DNA of 33,500 nt. Origin: Rhodoplanes elegans. Its GTDB lineage: Bacteria; Pseudomonadota; Alphaproteobacteria; Rhizobiales; Xanthobacteraceae. The position numbers and the translations under genes were made by a program. The notes under the pieces are model-generated. The model was not told the DNA's origin, made no database searches, and saw nothing but the letters and a program-made list of their open reading frames with translations. Shown in pieces: positions 3,526 through 30,194 of this stretch. Positions within the stretch are counted from its first letter, which is position 1; each line of letters begins with the position of its first letter. Where the stretch lies: NCBI RefSeq assembly GCF_016653355.1, contig NZ_NHSK01000081.1, positions 1 to 33,500 of the forward strand, read 5' to 3'.

Positions 3526-3630
3526 GTTTTGGGTCCGTGGATTTTTCCCGGGCCGGCCCCTGGCCAGCACACCCTCGCGGGCGGTGTAGCACGGCGGCGC
3601 GGGACGGGGGAGCCCGTGCCGCCGAGGGGC

Positions 3631-3678
3631 GAACGGCGGGGCGTTCATTTTTTTGACGGCGTTGAAAGTTTGAACGCC
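3631..3678. promoter_or_regulatory. Candidate enhancer (UAS): two inverted repeats of GAACG/GCGTT half-sites
   Basis: Two nearby inverted repeats share the same half-site. They are GAACG-N6-CGTTC (3631-3646) and GGCGTT-N9-AACGCC (3658-3678). Their centres are about 30 bases apart, close to three helical turns, and lie roughly 200-230 bases upstream of the predicted sigma-54 start. That is the usual place for paired dimer sites of a sigma-54 activator. The linked PrpR-type protein (13056-15164) is the obvious candidate to bind here. The different spacers (6 and 9) are a weakness, and a role at pncB is possible. Confidence 0.45.
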
Positions 3679-3844
3679 GAGCGACGTCGACGACCGCCCT
3701 GGCCGTGCGCCCGGCGCGTCGCTCGCGACTCCGCAGATCACCTTACGGGTTGTCCGCAGGCGGACCGCAATTCTCTGATTCGACAAATTAAAGAGTAGCC
3801 GCCCCGCACCCCGGGTCGGCCGTCCTCGCCCCCGCCGCACCCAC

Positions 3845-3860
3845 TGGCACCTCGGTTGCT
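3845..3860 (+). promoter_or_regulatory. Sigma-54 (-24/-12) promoter
   Basis: TGGCAC-CTCGG-TTGCT matches the RpoN consensus (TGGCAC, five bases, TTGC) at every conserved base, with the required GG (3846-3847) to GC (3858-3859) spacing. The predicted start is near 3871, giving a leader of about 110 bases before the transporter ATG at 3983. Its downstream cluster ends next to a convergent sigma-54 activator gene, which supports a real function. Confidence 0.85.
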
Positions 3861-3952
3861 AACTCGCTCGGGAGCGCCTCCCCCCGTGGGCGTCCGCAGA
3901 GGCTTTTCGCCTCTTCTGCCGGTTCTTCCGCAGCCGCGGTCGAACCTCTCCA

Positions 3953-3962
3953 GAACATGTTC
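3953..3962. promoter_or_regulatory. Perfect palindrome GAACATGTTC in the operon leader
   Basis: This 10-base perfect palindrome lies 20 bases before the transporter start, inside the predicted 5' leader. The same 10-mer recurs at 8078-8087, over the start of the GltD-like gene of the same cluster (there extended to CGAACATGTTCG). It could be an operator or a chance repeat. Confidence 0.25.
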
Positions 3963-3982
3963 ATAAGTTTCAGGAGCGGACG

Positions 3983-5404
3983 ATGGGAGCTGACAAAGAA
4001 AAGCTCGACGTCATCAAGATCATCAGGATCGTCGGATCGCTGGCGGCGATCGCGATCGGCGTCTATGTCGGGACCCTGCCACCGCCCGACGGCCTGACCA
4101 CACAGGCCATGTACGCGCTCGGCATCACGATCTGCGCGGTCGGCTGGTGGATGACCCAGCTCGTGCCGGAATACGTCACCGGCCTGATGATGTGCACGCT
4201 GTGGGTGGCGTTCGGCGCCGTGCCGTTCCCGCGCGCCTTCTACAACTTCTCGACGCCCGGCTGGTGGATCATGGTCGGCGCGTTCGGTCTCGGCGCCGTC
4301 GCCGGCCGGGTCGGACTCCTCAAGCGGATCTCGCTGTGGGTGCTGTCGCTGGTGCCGCCGACCTTCAAGGGCCAGGTGCTGGGCCTCGTCGGCTCGGGCA
4401 TCATCATCAGCCCGCTAGTGCCCTCGATGAACGCCAAGGCGGCGCTCTCCTCGCCGATGGCGCTGGCGATCTCCGACTCGCTCGGCCTGCCGCGCAAGAG
4501 CGCCGCGGCCGCCGGCATGCTCGGCGCCTGCTATCTCGGCTACGTGATCATGGGCCACATCTTCCTCTCCGGCTCGTTCTCGCACTACGCCCTGATCGCC
4601 GCCCTGCCGAAGGAGTTCCAGAACGTCTCCTGGATGGACTGGCTCTTGTGGTCGCTGCCCTGGGGCCTGGTGGTCGGCGTCGGCATGACGGTCGCGATCC
4701 TGATCCTCTACGCGCCGAAGGAGAAGGTCGCGCTGCCGGCCAACTACGGCAAGGAGGCGCTCGCCAAGATCGGCCCGATGACCAAGGACGAGAAGATCGT
4801 CCTCGCCGTCCTGATCTGCGCGCTCCTGATGTGGATGACCGAGGGCTACCACAAGATCAACTCGGGCGTCGTCGCCGTCACGGCCATGTGCACGCTGCTC
4901 GGCGTCCGCACGATGACGGCCAACGACTTCAAGAACGGCATCGAGTGGCCGGCCGTGATGCTGATCGGCAGTGTCTTCAATATGGCCTCTGTGATCGGCT
5001 TCCTGAAGATCGACAAGTATCTCGGCTCGCTGCTCGGCCCGTTCCTCGACTCCGTGATCCGCCAGCCGGTGCTGTTCGTCGCCTTCATGGCCATCTCGGT
5101 CTACGGGCTGAAGTTCCTGCTCACCAACATGACGTCGATGTCAGTGATGTTCGCCATGATCCTCTCGCCGCTGCTGGTTCCGCTCGGCGTCAATCCGTGG
5201 ATCGTGATCTTCGTGACGTTCTGCGCCGGCGGCATCTGGGTCCTGCGCTACACCAACACGATCTACATGTGCGCCCAGTTCGGCACCAAGGACGAGATGG
5301 CGACCGACGGGCAGATGGTGAAGCTCACCTTCGTCTACATGGTCCTGATCGTGCTCGGCGCCGTCGTCAGCATTCCCTGGTGGAAGATGCTCGGCCTGAT
5401 GTGA
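3983..5404 (+). CDS. SLC13/DASS-family anion symporter
   Basis: A 473-residue inner-membrane protein with about 12 hydrophobic segments, typical in length for the divalent anion:sodium symporter family (CitT/SdcS-like). Family marks include the first hairpin-entry region SPLVPSMNAKAALSSPMALA (about 139-158), with an N-rich helical turn, and the symmetrical second-half region FLLTNMTSMSVMFAMILSPL near 375-395. These SNT/TNMT-like elements bind carboxylate and sodium in the family. It is first behind the sigma-54 promoter and has a ribosome binding site AGGAG seven bases from the ATG. The likely substrate is a di- or hydroxycarboxylate feeding the oxidoreductase genes downstream; the exact substrate cannot be read from sequence. 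A GC-rich hairpin follows the stop codon. Confidence 0.88.
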   Translation: MGADKEKLDVIKIIRIVGSLAAIAIGVYVGTLPPPDGLTTQAMYALGITICAVGWWMTQLVPEYVTGLMMCTLWVAFGAVPFPRAFYNFSTPGWWIMVGAFGLGAVAGRVGLLKRISLWVLSLVPPTFKGQVLGLVGSGIIISPLVPSMNAKAALSSPMALAISDSLGLPRKSAAAAGMLGACYLGYVIMGHIFLSGSFSHYALIAALPKEFQNVSWMDWLLWSLPWGLVVGVGMTVAILILYAPKEKVALPANYGKEALAKIGPMTKDEKIVLAVLICALLMWMTEGYHKINSGVVAVTAMCTLLGVRTMTANDFKNGIEWPAVMLIGSVFNMASVIGFLKIDKYLGSLLGPFLDSVIRQPVLFVAFMAISVYGLKFLLTNMTSMSVMFAMILSPLLVPLGVNPWIVIFVTFCAGGIWVLRYTNTIYMCAQFGTKDEMATDGQMVKLTFVYMVLIVLGAVVSIPWWKMLGLM

Positions 5405-5407
5405 CGC

Positions 5408-5426
5408 CCGGCGCGACGCGCGCCGG
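5408..5426 (+). other. GC-rich hairpin between transporter and OFOR genes
   Basis: CCGGCGCG-acg-CGCGCCGG is a perfect 8-bp stem with a 3-base loop, starting four bases after the transporter stop. It has no T run, so it is more likely an mRNA-stability or partial attenuation element than a full terminator. Confidence 0.5.
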
Positions 5427-5465
5427 CACTGGATGAACTCTGCCCGACACCATCGGGAGGAACTG

Positions 5466-6590
5466 ATGAAGAATCACGGACGATTGTTGCAGGGCAACGA
5501 AGCCATGGCACAGGGCGCGATCTACGCCGGTGCACGCTTCTATGCCGGATATCCGATCACGCCGTCGTCGGAGATCGCCCAGGAATGCTCCCGGGTGATG
5601 CCCAAGCTGGGCGGCGTCTACATGCAGATGGAGGACGAGATCGCCTCGATGGCGGCGATCATCGGGGCGTCGCTCACCGGCGCCAAGTCGTTCACGGCGA
5701 CGTCCGGACCCGGCTTCTCGCTGATGCAGGAGAATCTGGGTCTGGCGATCATGGGCGAGGTGCCCTGCGTCGTGATGAACGTGCAACGCTCCGGTCCGTC
5801 GACCGGACTCGCCACCAAGCCGGCCCAGTCCGACATCATGCAGATCCGCTGGGGCCGCCACGGCGACCAGGAGCTGATCGCGCTGTCACCGTCCTCGGTC
5901 GCCGAGTGCTTCAGCCTGACCGTCGAGGCCTTCAACCTCGCCGAGAAGCTGCGCACCCCGGTGATCCTCGCGGCCGACGAGATCGTCGCCCACATGCGCG
6001 AGAACATCGTGATCCCGGACGAGGGCGAGATCGAGGTGATCGATCGCGCCAAGCCGACCGGCGATCCGGCGGCCTATCGGCCGTTCGCGCCGGCACCGGA
6101 CGGCGTGCCGCCGATGTCCGCCTACGGCAGCGAGTACATCATGCACGTGTCGAGCTCGATGCACGGGCCCGACGGCTACTCCAACAACTCGCCGGACAAC
6201 GCCGCCCGGCAGATCGCTCGCAAGAACGCGAAGTTCGAGCATCACCGCGCCGAGATCGTGAAGACCAAGGCGTTCGAGGTCGACGACGCCGACATTCTGC
6301 TCGTCGCCTTCGGCACCGTGACGCGGGCGGCGCGCGCCGCCGCCGCGAAGCTGCGGGCCGAGGGCGTCAAGGCCGGCGTGCTGCAGCTCGTCACGGTGTG
6401 GCCGTTCCCGAGCGAGGCGGTCGCCGAGCTCGGCGGCCGCGCCCGCACCGTCGTCGTGCCGGAGATGAACTACCACGGCCAGATCGCCGGCGAGGTGAAG
6501 AAGGTGCTCGGCGCCGACAAGGACGTCCGGCGGGTGAACGGCTGGAACGGCCAGATCATCACGCCGCGCGACATCCTGAAGGCGATCTGA
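5466..6590 (+). CDS. 2-oxoacid:ferredoxin oxidoreductase, alpha subunit (KorA type)
   Basis: A 374-residue subunit of a thiamine-diphosphate enzyme that oxidatively decarboxylates a 2-oxoacid to acyl-CoA and reduces ferredoxin. It shows the N-terminal signature GNEAMAQGAIYAGARFYAGY with PITPSSEI (about 10-36), the conserved TATSGPGFSLMQENLGLA region (about 76-93), RSGPSTGLATKPAQSD (about 110-125), and the C-terminal transketolase-like domain VVPEMNYHGQIAGEVKKVLG. The length is that of an alpha chain without fused gamma domain, which agrees with a separate gamma gene downstream. I start at 5466, where GGGAGG (5455-5460) is well spaced; an in-frame ATG at 5433 lacks this support. The 2-oxoacid specificity cannot be read; the neighbouring acyl kinase genes suggest a short-chain product. 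Confidence 0.93.
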   Translation: MKNHGRLLQGNEAMAQGAIYAGARFYAGYPITPSSEIAQECSRVMPKLGGVYMQMEDEIASMAAIIGASLTGAKSFTATSGPGFSLMQENLGLAIMGEVPCVVMNVQRSGPSTGLATKPAQSDIMQIRWGRHGDQELIALSPSSVAECFSLTVEAFNLAEKLRTPVILAADEIVAHMRENIVIPDEGEIEVIDRAKPTGDPAAYRPFAPAPDGVPPMSAYGSEYIMHVSSSMHGPDGYSNNSPDNAARQIARKNAKFEHHRAEIVKTKAFEVDDADILLVAFGTVTRAARAAAAKLRAEGVKAGVLQLVTVWPFPSEAVAELGGRARTVVVPEMNYHGQIAGEVKKVLGADKDVRRVNGWNGQIITPRDILKAI

Positions 6591-6612
6591 GCGAGCGGCG
6601 AGGAGGTTTCTC

Positions 6613-7476
6613 ATGACTTGCGCCACCAAGAGCTGCGCTCCGCAGGCCGGCGCCGCCGCGCCCTACGCGACGGGCCAGCAGTATCTCAAGGACGGGGTGA
6701 TGCCGCACATGTGGTGCCCCGGATGCGGCATCGGCGTGATGCTGCGCGCCTGCCTGCGCTCCTTCGAGGAGCTCGGCTACGGCAACCAGGATACCGTCGT
6801 CGTCACCGGCATCGGCTGCACGGGCAAGCTCGACGACTATCTCGTCACCCACGCCCTGCACACCACACACGGCCGCGCACTCGCTTGCGCGACCGGCATC
6901 AAGGCGGCGAAGGACGATCTCCACGTCGTCGTCTTCATGGGCGACGGCGACAGCGTCACGATCGGCGGCAACCACTTCCTGCACGCCGCGCGGCGGAACA
7001 TGGATCTGACCGCCATCATCATCAACAACTTCAACTTCGGCATGACCGGCGGCCAGTTCTCGGGGACGACCTTCAGCGGGGCGATCACCCAGACCAGCGC
7101 CTACGGCAATCCCGAGCGGCAGGTCGACATCTGCGCGCTCGCCGAGGTGGCGGGCGCCAACTACGTGGCCCGCTCGACGCCCTGGCACGTCGACGACCTC
7201 AAGACACTGATCGGCGAGGCGCTCGGCCGCAAGGGCTTCTCGGTGGTCGAGGTGCTGAGCCCCTGCCCCACGCATTTCGGCTCCAACAACAAGATGAAGA
7301 AGGGCACCGAGATGCTCGCCTGGCTGCAGGAGAAGACCGTGCCGGTCGAGGCCTGGCGGACCATGACGCCGGAGGCCCGCGCCGGGCTGTTCCCGATCGG
7401 CCGTCTGGTCGACCGCAACGAGCCCGACTTCAACGCGCGCTACGCCGAGGTCGGCGCCCGGGCGACCGGCAACTGA
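6613..7476 (+). CDS. 2-oxoacid:ferredoxin oxidoreductase, beta subunit (KorB type)
   Basis: A 287-residue catalytic subunit that binds thiamine diphosphate and a [4Fe-4S] cluster. The cluster ligands expected for KorB are all present: C35 and C38 (WCPGCG), C69 (GIGCTGK) and C218 (SPCPTHFG). The thiamine-diphosphate/Mg motif is VVFMGDGDSVTIGGNHFLHA followed by INNFNFGMTGGQ. The start at 6613 has a strong ribosome binding site GAGGAGG (6599-6605). The gene follows the alpha subunit by 22 bases. The N-terminal 20 residues carry two additional cysteines (C3, C8) that I do not know as conserved in the family. Confidence 0.94.
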   Translation: MTCATKSCAPQAGAAAPYATGQQYLKDGVMPHMWCPGCGIGVMLRACLRSFEELGYGNQDTVVVTGIGCTGKLDDYLVTHALHTTHGRALACATGIKAAKDDLHVVVFMGDGDSVTIGGNHFLHAARRNMDLTAIIINNFNFGMTGGQFSGTTFSGAITQTSAYGNPERQVDICALAEVAGANYVARSTPWHVDDLKTLIGEALGRKGFSVVEVLSPCPTHFGSNNKMKKGTEMLAWLQEKTVPVEAWRTMTPEARAGLFPIGRLVDRNEPDFNARYAEVGARATGN

Positions 7477-7517
7477 AGGCGCGACACCATGTTCAAGCGA
7501 TTCACGAGGTGACCGAG

Positions 7518-8060
7518 ATGTCCAGGAGATCCGAGATCGTTCTCGCCGGATCCGGCGGGCAGGGCGTCCTTTTGGCCGGTACGCTGCTGGGCGAGGCCGC
7601 GATCCTGGAGGGCGCCAACGTCGTCCAGACCGTGTCCTACGGCATCGCCACCCGCGGCGGCACGTCGATGACCGAAGTGATCATCGACGACGCGGAGATC
7701 GTCTACCAGCAGGTGGAGACGCCGAACGTCGTCCTGGCGATGTCGCCGGAAGCGATGAAGAAATACGAGGGGAGCGCCGCCGAAGGCGCACTGGTGATCT
7801 ACGACACCACCTTCGTGCCGGAGCGCGAGGGCCGGAATCTCGCCGGCTTCCCGTTCACCGACACGGCGGCCAAGATGGGCAATCCCGGCCTCGCCAATCT
7901 CATCGCGCTCGGCTTCCTCTGCACGGCCGGCGGCATCCTGACCAAGGACGCGCTCGAGATGGCGATCTCCGAGCGCTTCTCCGACAAGAAGCGAGACGCC
8001 AACCTCGCAGCGCTGCGCGCCGGCGCGGCTGCGGCGGCGAACGTCCTCGCGGCAGCCTGA
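7518..8060 (+). CDS. 2-oxoacid:acceptor oxidoreductase, gamma subunit
   Basis: A 180-residue protein of the POR gamma family. It opens with EIVLAGSGGQGVLLAGTLLG (residues 6-25), the CoA/nucleotide-binding glycine-rich start of the family, and has the conserved VQTVSYGIATRGGTS segment (about 38-52). The ATG at 7518 is preceded by GAGGTGA (7506-7512). It completes an alpha-beta-gamma OFOR whose beta subunit carries the internal cluster. The delta-type ferredoxin subunit found in some OFORs is missing; the ferredoxin domain of the next gene may replace it. The same open frame continues upstream through korB as a non-coding shadow. Confidence 0.92.
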   Translation: MSRRSEIVLAGSGGQGVLLAGTLLGEAAILEGANVVQTVSYGIATRGGTSMTEVIIDDAEIVYQQVETPNVVLAMSPEAMKKYEGSAAEGALVIYDTTFVPEREGRNLAGFPFTDTAAKMGNPGLANLIALGFLCTAGGILTKDALEMAISERFSDKKRDANLAALRAGAAAAANVLAAA

Positions 8061-8071
8061 AAGAGCCAGCC

Positions 8072-9661
8072 ATGAACGAACATGTTCGTCTGGAACCGCG
8101 GGTCGCGCCCTGCCGGGCGGCCTGCCCGGCCGGGATCGACGTGCCGCGTTATGTCCGCGAGATCCGCGACGGCGACTTCGACGCGGCGCTCGCCACCATC
8201 CGCGAGAAGATCCCCTTCGCGGCGGTGTGCGGCTATGCCTGCTTCCATCCGTGCGAAGCGAAATGCGCGCGCCGCCAGTTCGACGAGCCGGTGGCGATCC
8301 GGCTCCTCAAGCGCGCCGCCGCCGATCTCGCCCACACGGTTCCGCCGCCCGCGCCGGCGGCGTCGACCGGCCGCAAGGTCGCGGTGGTCGGCTCCGGCCC
8401 GGCCGGCCTCACGGCCGCCTATTATCTCGCGCTGAAGGGCCACGCCGTCACGGTGCTGGAGGCCGCCTCGAGGCCCGGCGGCATGCTGCGCTGGGGCATC
8501 CCCGAGTATCGCCTGCCGAACGACGTGGTCGAGAACGAGATCGCCCACATCACGGCGACCGGCGTGACGATCACGACCGGCGCCGCGGTGCGCTCGCCCG
8601 AGGATCTGCTCGCCTCCGGCCACGACGCCGTGCTGGTGGCGACCGGCGCCTGGACGCCGGTGAAGCTCGGGGTCGACGGCGAGACCGCCGCCGGCGTCCT
8701 CGACGGCATCGACTTCCTCAAGCGCGCCAACGCGGGCGAGACGGTCGCGCTCGGCAAGACCGTGGCCGTGATCGGCGGCGGCAACACCGCGATCGACGCG
8801 GCCCGCACCGCGATCCGCCTCGGGGCGCAGACGACGCTCGTCTATCGGCGCGGCCGCATCGCCATGCCGGCCTCGGCCGAGGAGATCGCGGAGGCCGAGG
8901 AGGAGGGGCTCGGCTTCGTGTTCGAGGCGGCGCCCGTGACCATCGAGGCGGGGCGGCTCACCTGCGTCAAGCTCGCCCCGAAGGAGGGCGGCAGCGGTCG
9001 CGGCGCGACGCTGGTCGCGGTCGATGGCAGCGACTTCACGATCGCCTGCGACACCGTGATCGTCGCGGCCGGCCAGCAGGCCGACGCTGCGGCGCTGAAG
9101 CTGAAGGTCGCGCGCGGCGGCACCGTCGCGGTGGACGACAAGGCCGCCACCTCGGTGCCCGGCGTGTTCGCGGCCGGCGACGTCGTCAGCGGCCCGTCGA
9201 CCATCATCGACGCGATCGCCTCGGGCCGGACCTCGGCGAGCGCCGTCGACATCTTCCTCGGCGGCGACGGAAACATCGATCCGCCGCGCGTAGAACCGAT
9301 CGAAGCGGACGCGCCCCTCGGCGGCCCGCGTCGCCGCCGCCTCGCGTCGAAGAAAGCGGATCCGGCCGAGCGGGCGAAGAGCTTCGCCCTGGTGGAGGAC
9401 GGCTTTGACGCGGCGATGGCGCGGAGCGAGGCCGAGCGCTGCCTCGCCTGCCAGACGCACCATCACACGGTGGAGATCACGACCGACATCTGCAAGGCCT
9501 GCGGCTACTGCGGCGAGATCTGCACCATGGGCGTGTTCGGCATGTCCGACACGTTCAACGCGATCGGCTACCAGCCCGCCGTGGCGCTGCATCCCGAGCA
9601 GTGCATCGGCTGCCTGAAGTGCTTCGCGGTCTGCCCGGACTTCGCCATCGCGGTGCGCTGA
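8072..9661 (+). CDS. GltD-like FAD/NAD(P) oxidoreductase with C-terminal 2x[4Fe-4S] ferredoxin domain
   Basis: A 529-residue electron-transfer flavoprotein. The N-terminal iron-sulfur region has C14, C18, C53, C57, C61 and C65, as in the glutamate synthase small-subunit family. An FAD-binding Rossmann motif VAVVGSGPAGLTAAYYLAL follows near 103 and an NAD(P)-binding motif VAVIGGGNTAIDAARTA near 230. A second FAD contact is GVFAAGDVVSGPSTIIDAI. The C-terminus has two CxxCxxCxxxC clusters (C474/477/480/484 and C511/514/517/521). It starts 11 bases after the gamma subunit. The likely job is passing electrons between the OFOR and NAD(P), so that 2-oxoacid oxidation yields NAD(P)H. A role in flavin bifurcation is possible but not shown. 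There is no GltB partner nearby, so glutamate synthase function is unlikely. Confidence 0.88.
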   Translation: MNEHVRLEPRVAPCRAACPAGIDVPRYVREIRDGDFDAALATIREKIPFAAVCGYACFHPCEAKCARRQFDEPVAIRLLKRAAADLAHTVPPPAPAASTGRKVAVVGSGPAGLTAAYYLALKGHAVTVLEAASRPGGMLRWGIPEYRLPNDVVENEIAHITATGVTITTGAAVRSPEDLLASGHDAVLVATGAWTPVKLGVDGETAAGVLDGIDFLKRANAGETVALGKTVAVIGGGNTAIDAARTAIRLGAQTTLVYRRGRIAMPASAEEIAEAEEEGLGFVFEAAPVTIEAGRLTCVKLAPKEGGSGRGATLVAVDGSDFTIACDTVIVAAGQQADAAALKLKVARGGTVAVDDKAATSVPGVFAAGDVVSGPSTIIDAIASGRTSASAVDIFLGGDGNIDPPRVEPIEADAPLGGPRRRRLASKKADPAERAKSFALVEDGFDAAMARSEAERCLACQTHHHTVEITTDICKACGYCGEICTMGVFGMSDTFNAIGYQPAVALHPEQCIGCLKCFAVCPDFAIAVR

Positions 9662-9705
9662 CGGCGGACCGTTCGACGCGGTCGCGCTGACGCCATCTCA
9701 CGATC

Positions 9706-9808
9706 GCGACCGGACCTGCGGGTCCGGTCGCCCCGCTCTCCGCACCGGCCGCCCACGCGGCGGCCGGTCCCTGGACTGTGCCCTGACGACCGGCCTGGCA
9801 ACAGGCTG
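9706..9808 (+). other. Three consecutive stem-loops between the OFOR module and the acyltransferase gene
   Basis: Hairpin 1 is GCGACCGGACC-tgcg-GGTCCGGTCGC (9706-9731), a perfect 11-bp stem. Hairpin 2 is ACCGGCCGC paired with GCGGCCGGT (9744-9752 with 9760-9768). Hairpin 3 is CGGCCTG-gcaa-CAGGCTG (9791-9808), 7 bp with one G.U and a GNRA-type tetraloop. There is no T run after any of them. They divide the operon into an oxidoreductase part and an acyl-phosphate part, and may set relative mRNA levels by processing or partial termination. Confidence 0.55.
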
Positions 9809-9869
9809 CGGCGGGGCCCCGGTCCGACGCGGAGAGGCCGTGTTTCCTCGTGCTTTCGAAGGTGCTGCC

Positions 9870-10781
9870 TTGATCTATCCGAGTTTCGACACCCTGGTCG
9901 AGAAGGTCCGCGACGGTGCGGCGCGCCGCAAGGTGGTCGCCGTGGTCGCGGCCGAGGACGATCACACGCTCGAGGCCGTCGCGCAGGCCAGGCGGGACGG
10001 AATCCTGGACGCCTGCCTGATCGGCCGCGCCGACAAGATCCGCACGCTCCTCGCCGGGCTCGGCGAGGCCGCCGAAGACTTCCGCATCGTCGACGCCGAG
10101 GACCCGGTCGCCGCGGCCAAGCGCGCCGCCGAGCTGGTGCGCGAGCGCACCGTCGACTTCGTGATGAAGGGCAAGGTCCAGACCGCCGACCTCCTGCGCG
10201 CCATGCTGTCGTCGGAGAGCGGCATGCGCACCGGGCGGCTGCTGTCGCATTTCGCCCTCGTCCAGATCCCGAACTATCACAAGCTGATCGGCCTCACCGA
10301 CGTCGCCATCAACATCGCGCCCGACCTCGCGCAGAAGAAGGAGATCGTCGAGAACGCGGTCGCGACGATGCGGGCGATCGGCTTCGAGCCGCCCAAGGTC
10401 GCGCTCCTGTCCTCGGCCGAAACCGTCAATCCGAAGATGCCCGAGACCGCCGAGGCGGCGGCGCTGACGGAGCTCAACCGTGGCGGCTGGCTGCCCGGCT
10501 GTCACGTCGACGGGCCGATCTCCTACGACCTCGCGATCAGCGCCGAGTCCGCGCGCATCAAGGGCTACGACAGCCCGCTGCCCGGCGACGTCGATCTGCT
10601 CGTCGTCCCGCACATCTCGGTCGGCAACATCCTGCTCAAGGCGCTGCGCTACTCGGCCGGCGCGGCGAGCGCCGGCATCGTGGTCGGCGGCCGTGTGCCG
10701 ATCGTGCTGACCTCGCGCGCCGTGGAAGCACAGGACAAGTTCCTGCCGCTGGTGATCGCCGCCTCGGTGAGCGGCGACTGA
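9870..10781 (+). CDS. Phosphate acetyl/butyryltransferase family enzyme (Ptb-like)
   Basis: A protein of about 303 residues that would swap CoA for phosphate: acyl-CoA + Pi to acyl-phosphate + CoA. Family features are the VAVVAAEDDHTLEAVAQARR start, the DFVMKGKVQTADLLRAML segment with the conserved KG, SHFALVQIPNYHKLIGLTD, and the C-terminal DLLVVPHISVGNILLKAL and VPIVLTSRA phosphate-binding regions. The length fits phosphotransbutyrylase. The start is uncertain: a TTG at 9870 has GAAGG seven bases upstream and gives the family-like start MIYPSFDTLVEKV, while a GTG at 9840 adds ten residues but has poor spacing to GGAGAGG. The gene is separated from the OFOR genes by strong hairpins and from the acyl kinase by a palindromic repeat. 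Pairing with the kinase points to an ATP-forming role. Confidence 0.9.
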   Translation: MIYPSFDTLVEKVRDGAARRKVVAVVAAEDDHTLEAVAQARRDGILDACLIGRADKIRTLLAGLGEAAEDFRIVDAEDPVAAAKRAAELVRERTVDFVMKGKVQTADLLRAMLSSESGMRTGRLLSHFALVQIPNYHKLIGLTDVAINIAPDLAQKKEIVENAVATMRAIGFEPPKVALLSSAETVNPKMPETAEAAALTELNRGGWLPGCHVDGPISYDLAISAESARIKGYDSPLPGDVDLLVVPHISVGNILLKALRYSAGAASAGIVVGGRVPIVLTSRAVEAQDKFLPLVIAASVSGD

Positions 10782-10807
10782 GATCGTTCGCTCCGAATTC
10801 CGAACTC

Positions 10808-10899
10808 GTCATGCGCGGGCCCGACCCGCGCATCCATCCCTTCGAAACAAGAGCACGTCTCGTCGTCAGATGGATTGCCGGGTCGAGCCCGGCAATGAC
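10808..10899. repeat. Composite palindromic intergenic repeat (four-arm type)
   Basis: Outer arms GTCAT (10808-10812) and ATGAC (10895-10899) are complementary. Inside are two perfect 9-bp hairpins, ATGCGCGGG/CCCGCGCAT (10811-10819 with 10825-10833) and ATTGCCGGG/CCCGGCAAT (10874-10882 with 10888-10896), and the middle segments ATCCATC (10832-10838) and GATGGAT (10869-10875) pair with each other. I recognise the core from dispersed repeats of Bradyrhizobium-type genomes (recollection, not a search). It sits inside the operon between the acyltransferase and the kinase. Confidence 0.75.
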
Positions 10900-10952
10900 C
10901 AAGACGATCGAGGACCGCGAAGAGACCGCGCCCCGCTCCTGAAAGAACCGCC

Positions 10953-12083
10953 ATGACCGACCCAAAAAACATCCTGACCATCAATCCCGGCTCGACGTCG
11001 ACCAAGATCGCCGTCTTCGCCGATGAGACCCGCCTGTTCGAGCGCAAGGTCGACCATTCGGCCGCCGATCTCGCGCCGTTCGACACGATCGGCGACCAGT
11101 TCCAAATGCGCAAGGCGGCGATCGTCGCCGCGCTTCAGGCCGAGGGCTTCGACCTCGGCACGCTCGCCGCCGTCGCGGGCCGCGGCGGCAAGCTGCCGCC
11201 ATTGAAGCGCGGTGCCTATCTGGTCAACGACGACATGGTGGAGTTCCTGCGCCACCGACCGATCGACCAGCACGCCTCCAATCTCGGCGCCCTGATCGCC
11301 CACGACATCGCCGAGCCGCTCGGCATTCCCTCCTTCATCTACGACGCCGTGGTGGTCGACGAGATGGAGGACATCGCCCGCTTCTCCGGCGTTCCGGAGC
11401 TGACGCGGCGCGCCTCCTGTCACGTCCTCAACATGCGGGCGATGGCGATCAAGGTCCTCAAGCGCGGCGGGCTGCGGCTGGAGGATGCCAATGTCGTCGT
11501 CTGCCACATGGGCGGCGGCGTCACCGCGACCGTGATCTCGGGCGGCCGGATGATCGACGTCTTGACCGACGAGGAAGGACCGTTCTCGCCGGAGCGCGCC
11601 GGGCGAGTGCCGTGCCGGCAGCTCGTGGACCTGTGCTTCTCCGGCGAGCACGACCGCAAGTCGGCGACCAAGCTGATGCGCGGCGTCGGCGGCCTCGTCG
11701 CCTATCTGGGCACCAACAGCGCGCTCGAGGTCGAAGCCCGCATCGACGCCGGCGACGCCGAGGCGGACCTCGTCTATCGCGCCATGGCGTATCAGATCGC
11801 CAAGGGGATCGGCGAGCTCTCGACCGTGGTGATGGGCAAGGTCGATCGCATCGTCCTGACCGGCGCCATCGCGCATTCGAAGCGGATGACCGACATGGTC
11901 TCCGAGCGGGTGCGGTTCATCGCGCCGGTCGAGATCGTCCCGGGCGAGAACGAGCTGGAGGCGCTGGCCTCCGGAACGCTGCGCGTGCTGCGCGGCGAGG
12001 AGACGCCGAACGTCTTCGTCGCGCCGCCGCGCGCCCGCCCCGCGGCCGAGACCCGCCGCATCGAAGAGGTGGCGCGCGCATGA
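10953..12083 (+). CDS. Butyrate kinase-type acyl kinase (acetokinase family)
   Basis: A 376-residue enzyme that makes ATP from an acyl-phosphate and ADP. The ASKHA-fold phosphate loop is ILTINPGSTSTKIAVF (7-22). Later motifs are GRGGKLPPLKRGAYLVNDDM, SNLGALIAHDIAEPLGIPSF, the second phosphate motif VVCHMGGGVTATVISGGRMI (about 185-204) and the adenosine-region VLTGAIAHSKRM. It is closer to butyrate/branched-chain acid kinase than to acetate kinase by these motifs and by its length. Its stop overlaps the next start (ATGA, 12080-12083), so the two are translationally coupled. The acid released could be butyrate, isobutyrate or another short acid; the sequence does not decide. Confidence 0.92.
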   Translation: MTDPKNILTINPGSTSTKIAVFADETRLFERKVDHSAADLAPFDTIGDQFQMRKAAIVAALQAEGFDLGTLAAVAGRGGKLPPLKRGAYLVNDDMVEFLRHRPIDQHASNLGALIAHDIAEPLGIPSFIYDAVVVDEMEDIARFSGVPELTRRASCHVLNMRAMAIKVLKRGGLRLEDANVVVCHMGGGVTATVISGGRMIDVLTDEEGPFSPERAGRVPCRQLVDLCFSGEHDRKSATKLMRGVGGLVAYLGTNSALEVEARIDAGDAEADLVYRAMAYQIAKGIGELSTVVMGKVDRIVLTGAIAHSKRMTDMVSERVRFIAPVEIVPGENELEALASGTLRVLRGEETPNVFVAPPRARPAAETRRIEEVARA

Positions 12084-13055
12084 ACGTGATCGCCTATGCG
12101 GCGCGCGCTTACGAGAGCGACGCCTTCGACCGCTTCGCCGAGGAGCTCGGCATCTCGCTGACCCGGGTGCCGCAGAACCTGTCGCTCGACAACGCGCATC
12201 TGGCCAAGGGCTTCGAATGCGTGACGATCCTCAGCGCCTGCGACGCCAGCGCGCCGGTGCTGGAGATCCTCGCCGCCGGCGGCACCCGCTTCGTCGCCGC
12301 CCGCACGGCCGGCTACAACAACATCGACGCCGCGGCGGCGCGGCGGCTCGGTATCCGATTTTCCAACGCCGACTATTCGCCGAACTCGGTCGCCGACTTC
12401 GCCGTCATGCTGATCCTGATGTCGATCCGCAAGGCGAAGACCATCATCGCCCGCAACAACGCCCAGGACTACACGATCGTCGGCGCCCAGGGGCGCGAGA
12501 TGCGCAACCTGACGATCGGCATCGTCGGCACCGGCCGCATCGGTGCCGCGACGGCCAAGAACCTGTCGGGCTTCGACGCCTGCCTGATCGGCTACGACGT
12601 CGTTCCGAACCCGGCCCTGAAGGACCTCGTCACCTACGTTCCGTTCGACGAGCTTCTCGCCGAGAGCGACGTGATCTCGCTGCACGCGCCGCTGACCGCC
12701 GGGACCCGGCACCTGATCAACGCCGAGTCGATCAGGAAGATGAAGGACGGCGTGATCATCGTGAACTGCGCCCGCGGCGAGCTGATCGACACCGAGGCGC
12801 TGATCGAGGCGATCGAAGAGAAGAAGGTCTCGGCCGCCGCCCTCGACGTGCTGGAGAACGAGCGCGGCATCTTCCACGCCGACCACCGCGACGAGATCCT
12901 CAAGCACCGGCAGCTGGCGATCCTGCGCGCCTTCCCGAACGTCGTGGTGACCACCCACAACGCCTTCTTCACCGATCAGGCGGTGTGCGACATGGTCGAG
13001 GTCGGGCTGCGCTCGCTCGCGAGCTTCGTGCGCACCGGCGCGAGCCCGTGGGAGA

Positions 13056-13066
<11 letters not shown>
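12080..13066 (+). CDS. D-2-hydroxyacid dehydrogenase (D-lactate dehydrogenase type)
   Basis: A 328-residue NAD-dependent enzyme interconverting a 2-oxoacid and a D-2-hydroxyacid. The cofactor fold has [12 protein letters not shown] (about 148-159), with an Asp after the second strand (YDVVPN) that favours NAD over NADP. Catalytic residues of the family are present: R232 in NCARGELID, the Glu in DVLENERG (259 or 261) and H293 in TTHNAFFTD. The fermentative D-LDH-like insert [20 protein letters not shown] is also there. It overlaps the acyl kinase by four bases and is the last gene of the sigma-54 cluster, tail-to-tail with the regulator (11-base overlap). It could supply the OFOR with 2-oxoacid from an imported hydroxyacid, or drain excess 2-oxoacid. 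Confidence 0.9.
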
Positions 13067-15164
<2,098 letters not shown>

Positions 15165-15376
15165 CGACGTCCTCGACATGCTCCTCGGTGGACGACGGGG
15201 CGTCGTCACGTTCCGCTTCGTGAAATTCTACCAGATTTCCGTTGCGCCGGACCGGCGGGCAGTGAGCGTCGGGTATGCCGATTGCGACCGGATCGCTCGC
15301 GAAACGACAACACCCGCGGATCGAGACAATCGTCGGTGGCAGTCGCGTCGATGGGGCCGGTCCCGAAGGCAGGCGA

Positions 15377-15405: not shown

Positions 15406-15611
15406 TGAAAAGAAAACAGCGTTTCGCCCTCGCGAACACGAGGGAGGCGCCAGGAGGATCGCCGGTTCGCCGCCCCGACACCCCCGCGCACCCACAGCGC
15501 GGTCGGTGCGGCCATCGCACGATCGCCCCTCACTCGACGTCCGCGGCCCCGCCGTGGACGTCCCTGCCGACGAGATCCCGTCGGCGACGACCATGGAGCC
15601 GAGTGCCGACG

Positions 15612-16538
15612 ATGACGCGCGACGACACCGAGGCCCGGATCGACCGGCTGCTGCGCGGCGCCGTCGATCCGCACGTCCACAGCGGCCCGTCGATCGCGCC
15701 GCGCGCGCTCGATCACGTCGCGCTGCTGCGCGCCGCGTCGGCCGCCGGCTTCGCCGCGGTGGTGACCAAGGATCACGACTATTCGAGCGCCATGACGACG
15801 GCGCTGATCCGCACCAACTTCCCCGAGCTGACGACGAAGATCTATCCGAGCATCGTGCTCAACAACGTGGTCGGCGGCTTCAACCCCTACGCGGTCGAGC
15901 ACACCGCCGCGATGGGCGGCAAGATCGTCTGGCTGCCGACCCTCGCGGCCGAGAACCATCTGCGCTGGCAGGCGCAGGCGCAGTGGAGCCACCCGGCCTC
16001 GACCGACCGGATGCGCCCGCCGGTCGGCATCCCGGTGCTCGACGCGGGCGGCGGCGTGCGCGACGAGGTGAAGGCGGTGCTCGACATCGTCGCCCGCTTC
16101 GACATGACGCTGGCGAGCGGGCATCTGCACATCAGCGAGACCTGGGTGGTGTTCGAGGAGGCCAAGCGGCGCGGCGTCACGCGGCTGATCCTCACGCATC
16201 CGGAGGAGATCGTCGGGGCGAGCCTCAACGACGTGAAGGGCATGGCCGCGATGGGCGCCTATGTGGAGCACTCGCTCGCCATGTTCATCGAGGGCTCGCG
16301 CTTCAAGATCGCGGGGGCCGAGGAGCTGCACCACCACATCGAGGCGGCCGGCGTCGAGAAGACGATCCTGTGCTCGGATCTGGGCCAGGTCGGTTCGGTC
16401 GATCCGATCGAGGGATTTCGGCGCGGCATCGCGATGTGCCTGGCGCTCGGCTACGACGACGACCAGATCCGCCACATGGTGTCGCTGAACGCGGCCCGGG
16501 TGCTGGGGCTGGAAGCGGATCTGCCGGCGGCGGCCTGA
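15612..16538 (+). CDS. DUF6282-type metal-dependent hydrolase
   Basis: A 308-residue protein resembling the DUF6282 group of amidohydrolase-like proteins; the family call is from memory. Metal-ligand-like motifs are spread as in that fold: DPHVHSGPS near 18, ASGHLHISE near 170, LILTHPEE near 195 and ILCSDLGQ near 254. The reaction is unknown; hydrolysis of an amide, lactone or ring is the usual chemistry. I start at the ATG 15612. A GTG at 15603 is a fair alternative, as GGAG (15595-15598) lies just before it. It is first in a plus-strand series with a cupin protein and an aldolase, and ends 63 bases before the cupin gene. Confidence 0.75.
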   Translation: MTRDDTEARIDRLLRGAVDPHVHSGPSIAPRALDHVALLRAASAAGFAAVVTKDHDYSSAMTTALIRTNFPELTTKIYPSIVLNNVVGGFNPYAVEHTAAMGGKIVWLPTLAAENHLRWQAQAQWSHPASTDRMRPPVGIPVLDAGGGVRDEVKAVLDIVARFDMTLASGHLHISETWVVFEEAKRRGVTRLILTHPEEIVGASLNDVKGMAAMGAYVEHSLAMFIEGSRFKIAGAEELHHHIEAAGVEKTILCSDLGQVGSVDPIEGFRRGIAMCLALGYDDDQIRHMVSLNAARVLGLEADLPAAA

Positions 16539-16601
16539 GCCGCGGCGAGTTTCAACGACGATCGAGGCGATCATCACGATCGTTACGATGACGAGGTGAC
16601 C

Positions 16602-17516
16602 ATGTACGACGTCAGCGACCCCCGCGCCGCCCTCGCACCGGCGGCTCCCGCCAAGTCGGCCGGCGCCGGCGCGGCCGCAGGCCCGTTCGGCGGCGCCGAG
16701 TATGTCCGCTTCTATGCCGAGCCGGCGCAGGAGGACGGCCCCGCCGGGAAGACCTGGTACGCCCGCGGCCAGAACTTCGTCATCGCCTATTCCGAGCCGA
16801 CCGCAGGCGCCGTGCTGGCCCGCGCGACGCAGGACGACGAGTACGCCGTCCTGATGCCGGACCGGCAGAGCGTGGTCGAGATCACCGCGCGCGGCGGCAC
16901 CACGCGGGTCGAGGGCAACTCGCTCGCCTTCGTGCCGCCGGGACCGTCGGAGATCAAGGTGATCGTGCCGGGCCGCATCATCCGCATGATCACGACGCGG
17001 GCCGCCGATCTCGTCGCCAAGTGCAGCAACGCCGCATCTTACGCGGACGCGAAGCCGCTCGTCGCATCGCTCGAACCGTGGCCGGCGCCGAAAGGTGGCT
17101 ACAAGCTGCACGTCTACGGGCTCGACGTGCCGCCCGAGAAGGGCCGCTTCGGCCGCATCTGGCGCGGCAGTACCTTCATGGTGAACTTCCTCGATTCCTA
17201 TCAGGGGCCGCGCGACGCGACCCGGCTCTCGCCGCATCACCACGACGACTTCGAGCAGTGCTCGCTGGCCATCGAGGGCGAGTTCGTCCACCACCTGCGC
17301 TGGCCCTGGACCGTCAACAAGACGTTCTGGCGGAACGACGATCACGAGCTGTGCGGCAGCCCGTCGATCGCCGTCATCCCGCCGCCCGCGATCCACACGA
17401 CCGAGGCGGTCGGCCCCGGCCTCAATCAGCTCGTCGACATCTTCTGCCCGCCGCGGCTCGACTTCTCGCAGAAGCCCGGCTGGGTGCTCAATGCCGACGA
17501 TTATCCGATGCCGTGA
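16602..17516 (+). CDS. Two-domain cupin-like protein of unknown function
   Basis: About 304 residues with no name I recognise. The first half (about 40-130) reads as a beta-rich cupin-like barrel without clear metal ligands ([20 protein letters not shown]). The second half has a metal-type cupin motif: [19 protein letters not shown] (HxHxxxE-like spacing), then later [17 protein letters not shown] with the second His. The pattern suggests a bicupin with one metal site, for example an isomerase, dioxygenase-like or lyase enzyme. The ATG at 16602 has GAGG five bases upstream; the in-frame GTG at 16596 overlaps that site. The N-terminus (5-30) is Ala/Gly/Pro-rich and likely disordered. It lies between the hydrolase and the aldolase, so it probably acts on the same compound. 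Confidence 0.7.
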
Positions 17517-17568
17517 CGGAGCGGCGCATCGGCCTGCAGCAAACGATTGGCACAGCGGACGCGCGACC

Positions 17569-18345
17569 ATGACCTCTTCCACCCGGACGTTCCGCCAGCG
17601 CGTGCTCGCCCGCGAGCCGTTGATCGGCACGTTCCTGAAGACGCCGACCGGCCACGCCACCGAGATCGTCGCCGACGCAGGCTTCGACTTCGTCGTCATC
17701 GACCAGGAGCACGCGGCATTCGATCGCGGCACCACCGACATCGCCATGATGGCGGCGCGCGCCGCCGGCGTGCCGGCGCTGGTGCGCGTGCCGGGGCCGG
17801 ACGCGATCCTCTCGGTGCTCGACAGCGGCGGGATGGGCGTGCTCGTCCCGCACGTGTCGAGCGCGGATTACGCCCGCAAGGCCGCGGCGCTGTGCCGCTA
17901 CCGCGGCGGCAAGCGCGGCTTCGCCACCTCGACGCCGGCCGGCCGCTACACGGCCGTACCCATGTGGCGCCACATCGCGCAGTCCGACGCCGACATCGTG
18001 ATGGTGGCGCAGATCGAGGACCCCGAGGCGCTCGACGAGATCGACGCGATCGCGGCCGTCGAGGGTGTCGACTCGCTGTTCATCGGCCGCGGCGACCTCA
18101 CCGCCGCCTTCGGCGACGAGACGCCCGATCCGCCGGCGGTGCGTCGCGCCGTCGAGCGCATCACGGCGGCGGCGCGCGCCGCCGGCAAGTCGATCAGCGT
18201 GTACGCGGCCAACGGCACCGAGGCGGCCTGGCTGAAGGAGCTCGGCGCCAGCACGTTCGTGGTGTCGTCCGACCAGGGCTTTCTGCGGGCCGGCGCCCTC
18301 GCCGGCCTCGCCGACGTCAAGGCCCGGATCACGACGCCGGCCTGA
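17569..18345 (+). CDS. HpcH/HpaI-family class II aldolase
   Basis: A 258-residue enzyme of the HpcH/HpaI family, which cleaves 4-hydroxy-2-oxoacids to pyruvate (or another 2-oxoacid) and an aldehyde using a divalent metal. The expected residues are present: H48 in VIDQEHAAFD, R73 in LVRVPGP, metal ligand E150 in AQIEDPEAL and metal ligand D176 in FIGRGDLTAAFG. The length is normal for the family. The ATG at 17569 matches the conserved start of relatives (RQRVLAREPLIGTFLKTP). It follows the cupin gene by 52 bases. A pyruvate or longer 2-oxoacid product could feed the OFOR of the first cluster; that link is inference. Confidence 0.9.
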   Translation: MTSSTRTFRQRVLAREPLIGTFLKTPTGHATEIVADAGFDFVVIDQEHAAFDRGTTDIAMMAARAAGVPALVRVPGPDAILSVLDSGGMGVLVPHVSSADYARKAAALCRYRGGKRGFATSTPAGRYTAVPMWRHIAQSDADIVMVAQIEDPEALDEIDAIAAVEGVDSLFIGRGDLTAAFGDETPDPPAVRRAVERITAAARAAGKSISVYAANGTEAAWLKELGASTFVVSSDQGFLRAGALAGLADVKARITTPA

Positions 18346-18385
18346 GCGCCGGCACGGGACCTCGGCCCGGCCCGCGCGAAGAGCT

Positions 18386-18432
18386 GCTCGATCGAGAAGG
18401 CAGATCGAGCGAGCCGATCCGGCAAAGCCGGA
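18386..18432 (+). other. Two hairpins before the ABC transporter genes
   Basis: GCTCGATC paired with GATCGAGC (18386-18393 and 18403-18410, 9-base loop) is followed by TCCGGC-aaa-GCCGGA (18418-18432). An A/T-rich stretch and a clear GGAGG (18474-18478) then lead into the binding-protein start. They may partly end the upstream transcript, act as an operator, or stabilise the abundant binding-protein mRNA, as is common before livK-type genes. Confidence 0.4.
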
Positions 18433-18485
18433 CGGCTGTCGCTATATAAAAAGAAACGATCAAAAGAACCAACGGAGGAAACGCG

Positions 18486-19649: not shown

Positions 19650-20397
19650 CGCGACGCTCGTCGATGCGCGGCCGGCCGCCGACGGGCGGCCGCCGCTGAT
19701 CGAGGTCGCCGGCCTGTCTGCCAGCTACGGCCGCGTCGCGGCCCTGAAGCCGGTCGACCTGCGGGTCGGCGAAGGCGAGTTCGTCACCGTGCTGGGGCCG
19801 AACGGCGCCGGCAAGACGACGCTCCTGCGCGCCATCGCCCGGCTGGTGCCGGGCGCCGGGCGGATCAGCTTTCGCGGGCAGGACATCTCGGCACTGCCGA
19901 CCCACAAGGTCGCGCGGCTCGGTATCGTGATGGTGCAGGAGGGGCGCGGCCTGTTCGGCGAGATGACGGTGCGCGAGAACCTGCTGCTCGGCGCCTACGG
20001 CCTCGGCGGTGCCGGCGAGGAGATCGAGCGGCGCTTCGCGACGGTGTTCGAATTGTTCCCGAAGCTGCGGCTGCGCGCCGACCAGATCGCCGCCTCGATG
20101 TCGGGCGGCGAGCAGCAGATGCTCGCCGTCGGCCGCGCCCTGATGGCGGGGCCGCAGCTCCTGATGCTCGACGAGCCCTCGCTCGGCCTCGCCCCACGGG
20201 TCGCCTCCGGCATTCTCGACACGCTCGGCGAGCTCAACCGCAACGGCCTCGGCATCCTGCTGGTCGAGCAGAAGGCGCCGCTCGCGCTCAAGCTGGCGAA
20301 GCGCGTCTATGTCCTCGCCTCGGGCAGCGTCCGGGCCGAGCTTCCGGCGGACCAGATCGGATCGCACCATGACCTTGCCCGCTACTATTTCCACTAG
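19636..20397 (+). CDS. Branched-chain-type ABC transporter ATPase (LivF type)
   Basis: A 253-residue ATPase with Walker A GPNGAGKTT (about 56-64), Q-loop VMVQEGRGLFGEMTVRENLL (the QEGR form seen in LivF), signature SGGEQQMLAVGRALM and Walker B LLMLDEPSLGLAP. The VEQKAPLAL region takes the place of the H-loop as in other LivF proteins. The ATG lies inside the end of the binding-protein gene and the 3' end overlaps the permease by 29 bases, so translation is coupled. A 15-20-residue N-terminal extension precedes the domain. Confidence 0.93.
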   Translation: MTAADATLVDARPAADGRPPLIEVAGLSASYGRVAALKPVDLRVGEGEFVTVLGPNGAGKTTLLRAIARLVPGAGRISFRGQDISALPTHKVARLGIVMVQEGRGLFGEMTVRENLLLGAYGLGGAGEEIERRFATVFELFPKLRLRADQIAASMSGGEQQMLAVGRALMAGPQLLMLDEPSLGLAPRVASGILDTLGELNRNGLGILLVEQKAPLALKLAKRVYVLASGSVRAELPADQIGSHHDLARYYFH

Positions 20398-21355: not shown

Positions 21356-21358
21356 GCC

Positions 21359-23021: not shown

Positions 23022-23064
23022 CGGCCGCGACCACCGCGGCTGCCCTCGTCAGGAGAGCTCAGGA

Positions 23065-23751: not shown

Positions 23752-23803
23752 TTCCCCGGCCGAGCGGCCGGGATCGACGGATTGCAATGAAAGGAACTCG
23801 ATC

Positions 23804-30145: not shown

Positions 30146-30194
30146 CACCGCCGCGTCCGCCCGCTCTGCCGCCGGTCTCATGTCATTGATTTTC

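Follow-up and report, generated by a model that had tools for sequence, protein, structure and literature searches.

A candidate sigma-54-controlled operon in Rhodoplanes elegans for forming ATP from a 2-hydroxy- or 2-oxoacid

What would a member of the Rhizobiales do with a run of genes that joins an oxidoreductase for 2-oxoacids to a butyrate-type kinase, and how might it have come by them? The question is raised by a stretch of 33,500 nucleotides (nt) from Rhodoplanes elegans, positions 1 to 33,500 of NZ_NHSK01000081.1 (contig C81, the genome being 6.54 Mb in size; hereafter the window), in which eight genes, all on the forward strand, encode in this order a carrier of the DASS family, the alpha, beta and gamma subunits of a 2-oxoacid:ferredoxin oxidoreductase (OFOR), a flavoprotein fused to a ferredoxin, a phosphate acyltransferase (Ptb), a butyrate-type acyl kinase (Buk) and a D-2-hydroxyacid dehydrogenase. 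The explanation that we prefer, with a probability of roughly 0.7, is that they form an operon for catabolism, acquired horizontally, which would take a 2-hydroxy- or 2-oxoacid through acyl-CoA and acyl phosphate to ATP. The anatomy of the genes supports such a pathway well; the substrate, the direction of flow, the electron route, co-transcription and the direction of the transfer are inferences.

The gene set and its order on one strand are as the initial annotation had described them, coordinates included, and the families that it named agree with Pfam and NCBIfam models, whose bit scores were judged here against the model cut-offs (Table 1). The first five genes are closely packed, with 28 nt between DASS and alpha, 22 nt between alpha and beta, 41 nt between beta and gamma and 11 nt before the flavoprotein gene; wider gaps precede ptb (178 nt) and buk (171 nt), and buk runs into the dehydrogenase gene by an ATGA overlap. 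Some of the proteins fall short of curated equivalogs, namely Ptb (TIGR02706, 302.9 bits against a cut-off of 410.5), the ferredoxin tail of the flavoprotein (residues 460-529, NF042987 OGOR_delta, 48.9 against 125) and the convergent activator, which has a PrpR_N sensor together with the AAA domain and Fis-type HTH of PrpR/PrdR activators (PrpR, 353.8 against 499.2; PrdR, 388.1 against 795).

Table 1. Features of the candidate operon and its flank, in positions of the window; scores are in bits.
Feature	Position	Strand	Basis or remark
Sigma-54 (-24/-12) promoter, TGGCAC-N5-TTGCT	3845..3860	+	Perfect match; 138 nt 5' of the DASS start
DASS/SLC13-type carrier, organic anion	3983..5404	+	PF00939 118, PF03600; TIGR00785 112.3, under cut-off of 198.6
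OFOR alpha, KOR side of the family	5433..6590	+	NF006412 518.7, cut-off 411; tree
OFOR beta (TPP)	6613..7476	+	PF02775; Lys72 at StOFOR1 Lys49 position
OFOR gamma	7518..8060	+	PF01558
GltD-like NAD(P)/FAD flavoprotein, N-terminal Fer4_20, C-terminal KorD-like 2x[4Fe-4S] ferredoxin	8072..9661	+	PF14691, PF07992, PF13187
Strong hairpin without T tract, in the 178-nt flavoprotein-ptb gap	9706..9731	+	
Ptb, phosphate acyl (butyryl-type) transferase	9840..10781	+	PF01515 156.9 (cut-off 24); NF006045 290.3 (cut-off 282)
Dispersed repeat of the host, between ptb and buk	10807..10899	+	
Buk, butyrate-type acyl kinase, ATP-forming step by family	10953..12083	+	TIGR02707 442.3, cut-off 289.1
NAD-type D-2-hydroxyacid dehydrogenase	12080..13066	+	PF02826/PF00389; VanH-like, under equivalog cut-offs; ATG overlaps buk stop
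PrpR_N-PAS-AAA-HTH_8 sigma-54 activator	13056..15209	-	Convergent; 11-nt end overlap with the dehydrogenase gene

Taken together, these families suggest the following route. The PrpR_N activator would sense a small acid and turn on the sigma-54 promoter at 3845, and the DASS carrier, judged by its family, would bring in an organic anion. The D-2-hydroxyacid dehydrogenase may then oxidize a D-2-hydroxyacid to the 2-oxoacid, or reduce surplus 2-oxoacid. By family and by residues, the OFOR lies on the KOR (2-oxoglutarate) side and would oxidatively decarboxylate the 2-oxoacid to an acyl-CoA, its electrons going to NAD(P) through the fused ferredoxin-flavoprotein; Ptb would make the acyl phosphate, and Buk would yield ATP and the free acid, to be exported or used further. 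A route from 2-oxoacid over acyl phosphate to ATP had been proposed from the outset, and its logic fits, as in the Hpd trio and the luo operon discussed below.

That the genes belong together is suggested by their recurrence in distant genomes. Among the best 80 of the 584 Buk loci found in a scan of GTDB species genomes, the same cassette occurs at one locus, L016, in a Desulfovibrionales metagenome-assembled genome, and in 24 genomes behind these loci the DASS protein as query gives three matches (61%, 32% and 26%). In the class to which L016 belongs, 11 of 247 genomes match the DASS query at 43-63% identity; we call these genomes Desulfovibrionales-type, a label based on how L016 is titled, together with the class search made around it. 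The stretches read at all 11 loci (L016 and L126-L135) contain DASS, OFOR alpha, beta and gamma, Ptb and Buk, and OFOR adjoins Ptb-Buk in every one (in L135 the DASS gene lies about 4 kb away). Beside the cassette, 10 of the 11 have a nearly full-length match to the activator at 38-50%, with PrpR_N present in both that were checked (L016 and L133). A GlcD/GlcF hydroxyacid dehydrogenase pair accompanies eight of them (about 8 kb from DASS in L127); L016, L126 and L135 showed no such pair, the latter two read to the contig end or 20 kb. In other samples there were eight matches at 24-29% besides the host's own among 398 genomes of its phylum, five among 228 of the wider phylum of L016 (four already in the set, one at 27%) and 11 among 239 of the phylum of a Sporomusa genome, at 26-45%, where one of eight fetched neighbourhoods (genome G1762, locus L168) has the OFOR. 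A search of plasmids found no match to DASS at E 1e-20, its best matches being at most 47% for OFOR alpha and 56% for Buk. With the LIV binding protein and NAPRT of the window as queries, Bosea and Azospirillum were among the best plasmid matches, in keeping with an alphaproteobacterium but no proof of one. Because of the conserved cassette we reject a one-off gathering of genes. The earlier comparison with amino-acid fermenting anaerobes holds in part: the cassette is found in Desulfovibrionales-type genomes, mostly with a hydroxyacid dehydrogenase, and its OFOR is on the 2-oxoglutarate side and not of the VOR/IOR type that accompanies Ptb-Buk in such fermenters.

Recurrence is likewise what gives the promoter its weight. 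The stretch 3845-3860, TGGCACCTCGGTTGCT, matches the sigma-54 pattern perfectly, and the host genome has rpoN. Sites with at most one mismatch precede the cassette in 11 of 12 loci, the window included, against 0.15 expected (350 nt 5' of the chosen start, 300 shuffles per locus; one start per locus, that of the first gene of the OFOR run, was picked after a scan before 23 gene starts). The single miss is L135, for which the DASS start was used (two mismatches), and in that locus a one-mismatch site precedes ptb, with which its OFOR run begins; some of the scanned DASS starts have no good site (none in L130, two mismatches in L128). Through this recurrence at cassette loci the predicted site in the window is beyond chance. 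A pattern scan of 3600-13300 found no sigma-70-like site, nor did one of the 178- and 171-nt gaps find a T-tailed terminator-like site, and the inverted repeats upstream of the promoter are too indistinct to name an activator site. The initial annotation had the whole set controlled by sigma-54 from one promoter; the first half of that claim gains support from a perfect and recurrent site, and the second is not proven, with gaps of 178 and 171 nt and strong hairpins on either side of ptb.

The electron route is where the window departs from most of its class relatives, in which the ferredoxin is a separate small frame; in the window it is joined to the C-terminal end of a flavoprotein that resembles GltD and has NAD(P)- and FAD-binding folds. 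Between gamma and ptb, 10 of the 11 class loci have a small frame that matches only the KorD-like ferredoxin tail of this flavoprotein, the stretch of L135 being cut there. The fusion itself recurs in L168 (51% identity over query residues 10-528), beside the OFOR closest to that of the window (alpha 70%, beta 60%, gamma 51%; the DASS of L168 is at 44%). A tree joins the two OFOR alphas weakly (86/58), and the pairing gains support because both loci share the flavoprotein-ferredoxin fusion. We infer that the electrons of the OFOR would pass through the flavoprotein to NAD(P). The operon of L168 (L168:18175-19419, minus strand) and L176, from Bacillota, also has an odd enzyme of the glutamate-dehydrogenase family, an OFOR-flavoprotein set as in the window, a gene resembling EutA/arylmalonate decarboxylase and an MFS carrier, and may degrade an unusual acidic amino acid.

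Within the class of the host, a search of gene neighbourhoods did find OFOR with Ptb-Buk elsewhere (in genomes G1277, G061 and G1237), of the VOR or IOR type; the form in the window has its kin outside the class. A full Buk gene is confined to the host among 60 relatives, itself included; 385 genomes of the class add G061 (44%) to it, and among 397 genomes of the order three have the gene, the host, G1277 (55%) and G1237 (44%), with 26 others matching the query at only 25-33% (the three samples overlap in part). In G1277 and G061, matches to all three OFOR subunits (31-34%) lie beside Buk, and in G1237 a match to OFOR alpha (25%) does so. The best NCBIfam model is VorB for the alpha of G1277 (426.6, cut-off 399) and IorA for that of G1237 (703.2, cut-off 650.9); that of G061 groups with the VOR type in the tree. 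Judged from these neighbourhoods, OFOR-Ptb-Buk groups in the class are sporadic and of at least three forms. Two further loci may be recorded here. At L154:6139-13394, in the host's order, IorAB lies beside Ptb, Buk and a ferredoxin plus FAD protein, by eye of an AprBA-like type; this is another and different OFOR-Ptb-Buk cluster. At L013:2489-12581, in Sporomusa silvacetica, buk adjoins what by eye are a gene like those for beta-keto-acid cleavage enzymes, a 3-hydroxyacyl-CoA dehydrogenase, thiolases and a CoA transferase, perhaps for anaerobic degradation of carnitine or a beta-keto-diacid.

Two described systems come close. HpdDEFG-HpdJ-HpdK of Clostridium scatologenes converts hydroxyphenylpyruvate in vitro to hydroxyphenylacetate with formation of ATP, each step being reportedly reversible; according to the same paper, similar OFOR-Ptb-Buk trios are widespread in anaerobic Firmicutes, many OFORs of the IOR cluster (2) and the VOR cluster (3) have such transferase and kinase genes, or else a ligase, in their vicinity, and Proteobacteria reach arylacetates by a different route (PMC13285125). 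OFOR-driven oxidation of amino acids in acetogens is the topic of a further report (PMC13290082). As in the Hpd trio, a four-part OFOR and homologues of Ptb and Buk share one cluster, contiguous in the window, where they would serve the same course from 2-oxoacid over acyl-CoA and acyl phosphate to ATP. The Hpd OFOR, however, is in the VOR cluster and uses ferredoxin, whereas that of the window is on the KOR side, outside the VOR-type clade, and the window adds the DASS carrier, the sigma-54 site and the ferredoxin-flavoprotein fusion. The second system is the luo operon of Desulfovibrio vulgaris (DVU3025-3033), in which predicted sigma-54 and sigma-70 promoters precede the genes for a permease, lactate dehydrogenases, PFOR, Pta and Ack (PMC4481167) and which has LurR as its response regulator (PMC6456213). 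It too combines a predicted sigma-54 promoter with a permease, a hydroxyacid dehydrogenase, a 2-oxoacid:ferredoxin oxidoreductase, a phosphotransacylase and a kinase in one ATP-making unit, and its GlcD/GlcF type of dehydrogenase is the one found in eight of the 11 relatives of the window operon. The parts differ: a lactate permease, a one-gene PFOR, Pta, Ack and LurR in luo, as against DASS, a KOR-side OFOR, Ptb, Buk and a PrpR_N activator in the window.

More distant parallels concern single parts. Butyrate kinase is named in the predicted sigma-54 regulon of Clostridia (PMC12316311), another bacterial class, in a passage that names no OFOR or DASS partner; the term is absent from the text of the D. 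vulgaris sigma-54 regulome paper (PMC4641369) and of a Clostridiales sigma-54 paper (PMC6615313). The KorABCD/OorDABC enzymes share with the window their subunit make-up and a KorD-like ferredoxin, and Helicobacter pylori OorAB is matched well by the window's alpha and beta; the window differs in the fusion of this ferredoxin to a GltD-like flavoprotein, in Lys instead of Arg at the position of StOFOR1 Lys49 and in the Ptb-Buk partner. Phenylglyoxylate:NAD oxidoreductase, PadEFGHI, likewise ties an OFOR to an NAD-linked flavoprotein (PadH), but Pad-family scores in the window are far under cut-off (PadG 81.6 against 700). The initial annotation knew of no described operon of this kind in Rhizobiales. 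Within the open-licence literature searched this holds, no Rhizobiales operon with butyrate kinase and a ferredoxin oxidoreductase having been found there, and a description elsewhere being possible; nor, judged from titles and abstract openings in that literature, was a description found of the cassette itself, its Desulfovibrionales-type form included.

What, then, might the substrate be? In the tree, the window, L168 and the 11 class loci have OFOR alphas that form one clade of 13 (100/100), which sits beside H. pylori OorA, Pyrococcus and L020 (92/88), apart from a clade (100/100) of 13 VOR-type alphas found near Buk elsewhere; M. marinus OGOR and StOFOR1 fall outside on long branches. Model scores agree in kind, with VorB (NF005507) at 282.6 against a cut-off of 399 and IOR at 72.9 against 650.9. 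At the position of StOFOR1 Lys49, 11 of the 13 betas of the cassette clade have Lys (Lys72 in the window), two 2-oxoglutarate enzymes, HpOor and MmOGOR, have Arg, and all 13 VOR-type betas have Leu or Phe; the row of L020 was dropped from this count, its alignment there being doubtful, and rows in this and the next count are related by descent, not independent events. Lys stands at position 80 of Buk, three residues past an invariant Arg, in 11 of the 12 Buks of the cassette and in all four Selenomonadales/Sporomusa-type ones, against Leu, Met or Ile in 75 of 80 others; of five alignments compared, those of butyrate kinases alone extend over this part of the protein. The solved relatives of the DASS carrier, all remote, are dicarboxylate and anion carriers. 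Finally, the gene before the L168 OFOR encodes a protein of the glutamate-dehydrogenase family with RGG for KGG and VAHFE for VSYFE, motifs that in the C. symbiosum glutamate dehydrogenase belong to the side-chain pocket. An Arg at Ptb position 270 was dropped as a sign of a charged substrate, because the one acetyl-type Pta compared, 1r5j, also has Arg there. Together, the tree, the OFOR Lys, the carrier, the L168 dehydrogenase and Buk Lys80 lean, not decisively, to a 2-oxoacid whose side chain is charged rather than to the branched or aromatic acids described for Ptb-Buk, and a second group on the substrate, charged or polar, is probable. That a KOR-side OFOR with Ptb-Buk makes ATP from an acyl-CoA with a second negative charge, such as that of a dicarboxylic or sulfonated 2-hydroxyacid, is a tentative proposal, which we put well below even odds.

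Several observations pull the other way, on the pathway as well as on its substrate. In the 33.5 kb window two sigma-54 matches with at most one mismatch were found where 1.6 are expected, so the site alone proves little, and strong hairpins lie in both gaps, before ptb and before buk (fold z -3.3 and -4.5; the gap stretch 9662-9800 folds with z -3.26). Of the proteins of the window, the Buk genes closest to its own within the best 80 loci (69-70%, L012-L015) have beside them just Ptb and, at three of these four loci, a match to an SDR of generic type; the genes around Buk in L013 look by eye like thiolase and CoA-transferase genes. In L168/L176, over 31 kb read, Ptb, Buk and the D-hydroxyacid dehydrogenase have no match at E 0.01, and the OFOR module, whose closest relative this is, thus can do without Ptb-Buk; the sigma-54 activator of L168 has PAS domains and no PrpR_N. 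GlcD/GlcF do not occur in the window, whose D-hydroxyacid dehydrogenase is of a different family. Kinases of the Buk type are best known for uncharged acyl groups. The OFORs of L134 and L135 have Thr at the Lys49 position, and in StOFOR1 the K49I change abolishes 2-oxoglutarate activity and spares that with pyruvate, as the residue argument would have it, but K49R prefers pyruvate, L123N prefers 2-oxoglutarate, contrary to a simple residue rule, and Hydrogenobacter KorAB, highly specific for 2-oxoglutarate, is without the residue (PMC5020499).

The alternative that survives best is a doubtful but serious one, plain use of 2-oxoglutarate or a C4/C5 dicarboxylate: imported 2-oxoglutarate or 2-hydroxyglutarate would be turned by the KOR into succinyl-CoA, with Ptb-Buk doubling for succinyl-CoA synthetase. 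The place of the OFOR beside OorA and its Lys at the Lys49 position are as this would have them, as is the best solved relative of the carrier, a chloroplast dicarboxylate transporter (E 3e-11); a second ATP route from succinyl-CoA would nevertheless be odd if succinyl-CoA synthetase is present, as expected, and the amino-acid dehydrogenase of L168 departs from glutamate dehydrogenase at both motifs just given.

It is unlikely that the operon is two joined transcription units without a shared flow, a carrier-OFOR-flavoprotein unit like that of L168 and a ptb-buk-dehydrogenase unit of other source. The L168 relationship without ptb-buk, the gaps with their hairpins, and Buk and Ptb closest to Selenomonadales/Sporomusa-type loci (Ptb 52-57% there and 51% in L016, among the best 80) would all be in keeping with such a join; OFOR nevertheless stands beside Ptb-Buk in all 11 class loci, and neither gap has a terminator-like or sigma-70-like site.

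Flow could also run in reverse, an imported acid being made into its CoA ester by Buk and Ptb, carboxylated by the OFOR to the 2-oxoacid and reduced to the hydroxyacid. We consider this assimilatory use distinctly improbable despite the reversibility of each Hpd step: an NAD(P)-type flavoprotein would, judged by redox potentials, be a poor electron source for reductive carboxylation if it does not bifurcate, and the GlcD/GlcF genes of the eight relatives are for hydroxyacid oxidation. Least probable of all, and ruled out as first choice by the OFOR tree and the residue pattern, is oxidation of a branched-chain or aromatic 2-oxoacid, the usual Stickland-type use of Ptb-Buk, which has the documented partnership (PMC13285125) and the VOR-type enzymes of L153 and L156, two other loci of the same class, in its favour, but which would leave an OFOR outside the VOR clade, without Leu or Phe at the diagnostic position, and with an odd partner in a DASS anion carrier.

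Returning to the preferred reading, a catabolic operon acquired by transfer, its history in the host has left some traces. The NAPRT gene to the left of the operon has relatives at 76-88% in four of five sister genomes, and in the regions fetched from these four (two contigs end within 2 kb) the operon genes are absent bar a remnant in G002 and weak matches of generic families; the D-2-hydroxyacid dehydrogenase has no match there at E 0.001, and a whole-genome search found no full buk in any of the five, one of which is 58% complete. The remnant (L092:11395-11478), 84 bp long and preceded by a stop, is 83% identical to buk in its 3' part and lies behind a gene that by eye resembles those for enoate reductases. 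Since G002 keeps it, buk was probably present earlier in the genus and lost there. No second acetokinase-family gene answers the window Buk query in the host at E 0.001; elsewhere, weak members of that family do so at E 1e-7 to 1e-11. The repeat between ptb and buk, about 93 nt long and hairpin-forming, recurs in at least 37 further places of the host genome (40 of 122 candidates scored, same-place duplicates removed), five of them pieces of 30-35 nt. On account of this repeat and of the NAPRT relatives in the sisters we reject a contaminant contig. Horizontal gain is part of the explanation to which we gave the probability above.

Two other features of the window lie outside the operon. A second operon-like run at 15600-24553, divergent from the activator gene, encodes a DUF6282 protein, a cupin-like protein (by eye, without a Pfam match), an HpcH/HpaI aldolase, five LIV-type ABC transporter genes, a flavodoxin-like reductase and an SDR; no sigma-54 site with at most one mismatch precedes it, and it is possibly another catabolic pathway sharing the activator. 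Further on, the 46 nt at 30194-30239 recur without change in the sister genome G004, in a stretch that overlaps its tRNA-Arg(CCG) gene in the 3' part (L099:13274-13350). A tyrosine recombinase gene adjoins the 46-nt stretch (30420-31775), and beyond it the GC content drops from about 0.70 to 0.57-0.60; this looks like one border of a genomic island that entered at a tRNA-Arg gene.

The chemistry of fermenting anaerobes is well known; the combination of enzymes described here, and its probable charged substrate, seem not to have been described, and in this form the gene set is shared mainly with relatives of sulfate-reducing anaerobes, the analysis marking out a conserved sigma-54 cassette in Desulfovibrionales-type genomes. 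If the preferred reading is true, an alphaproteobacterium would possess a complete and regulated device for substrate-level phosphorylation on a hydroxy- or oxoacid, a capability generally ascribed to anaerobes, refitted by fusion of the ferredoxin to an NAD(P)-linked flavoprotein. If a charged acyl-CoA is indeed the intermediate, butyrate-type kinases would gain a new substrate class and biology a new energy-yielding pathway, which would use a separate ferredoxin in the Desulfovibrionales-type genomes and would have been adapted to NAD(P) in a Rhizobiales host, with its OFOR-flavoprotein part also found in a lineage of Bacillota.

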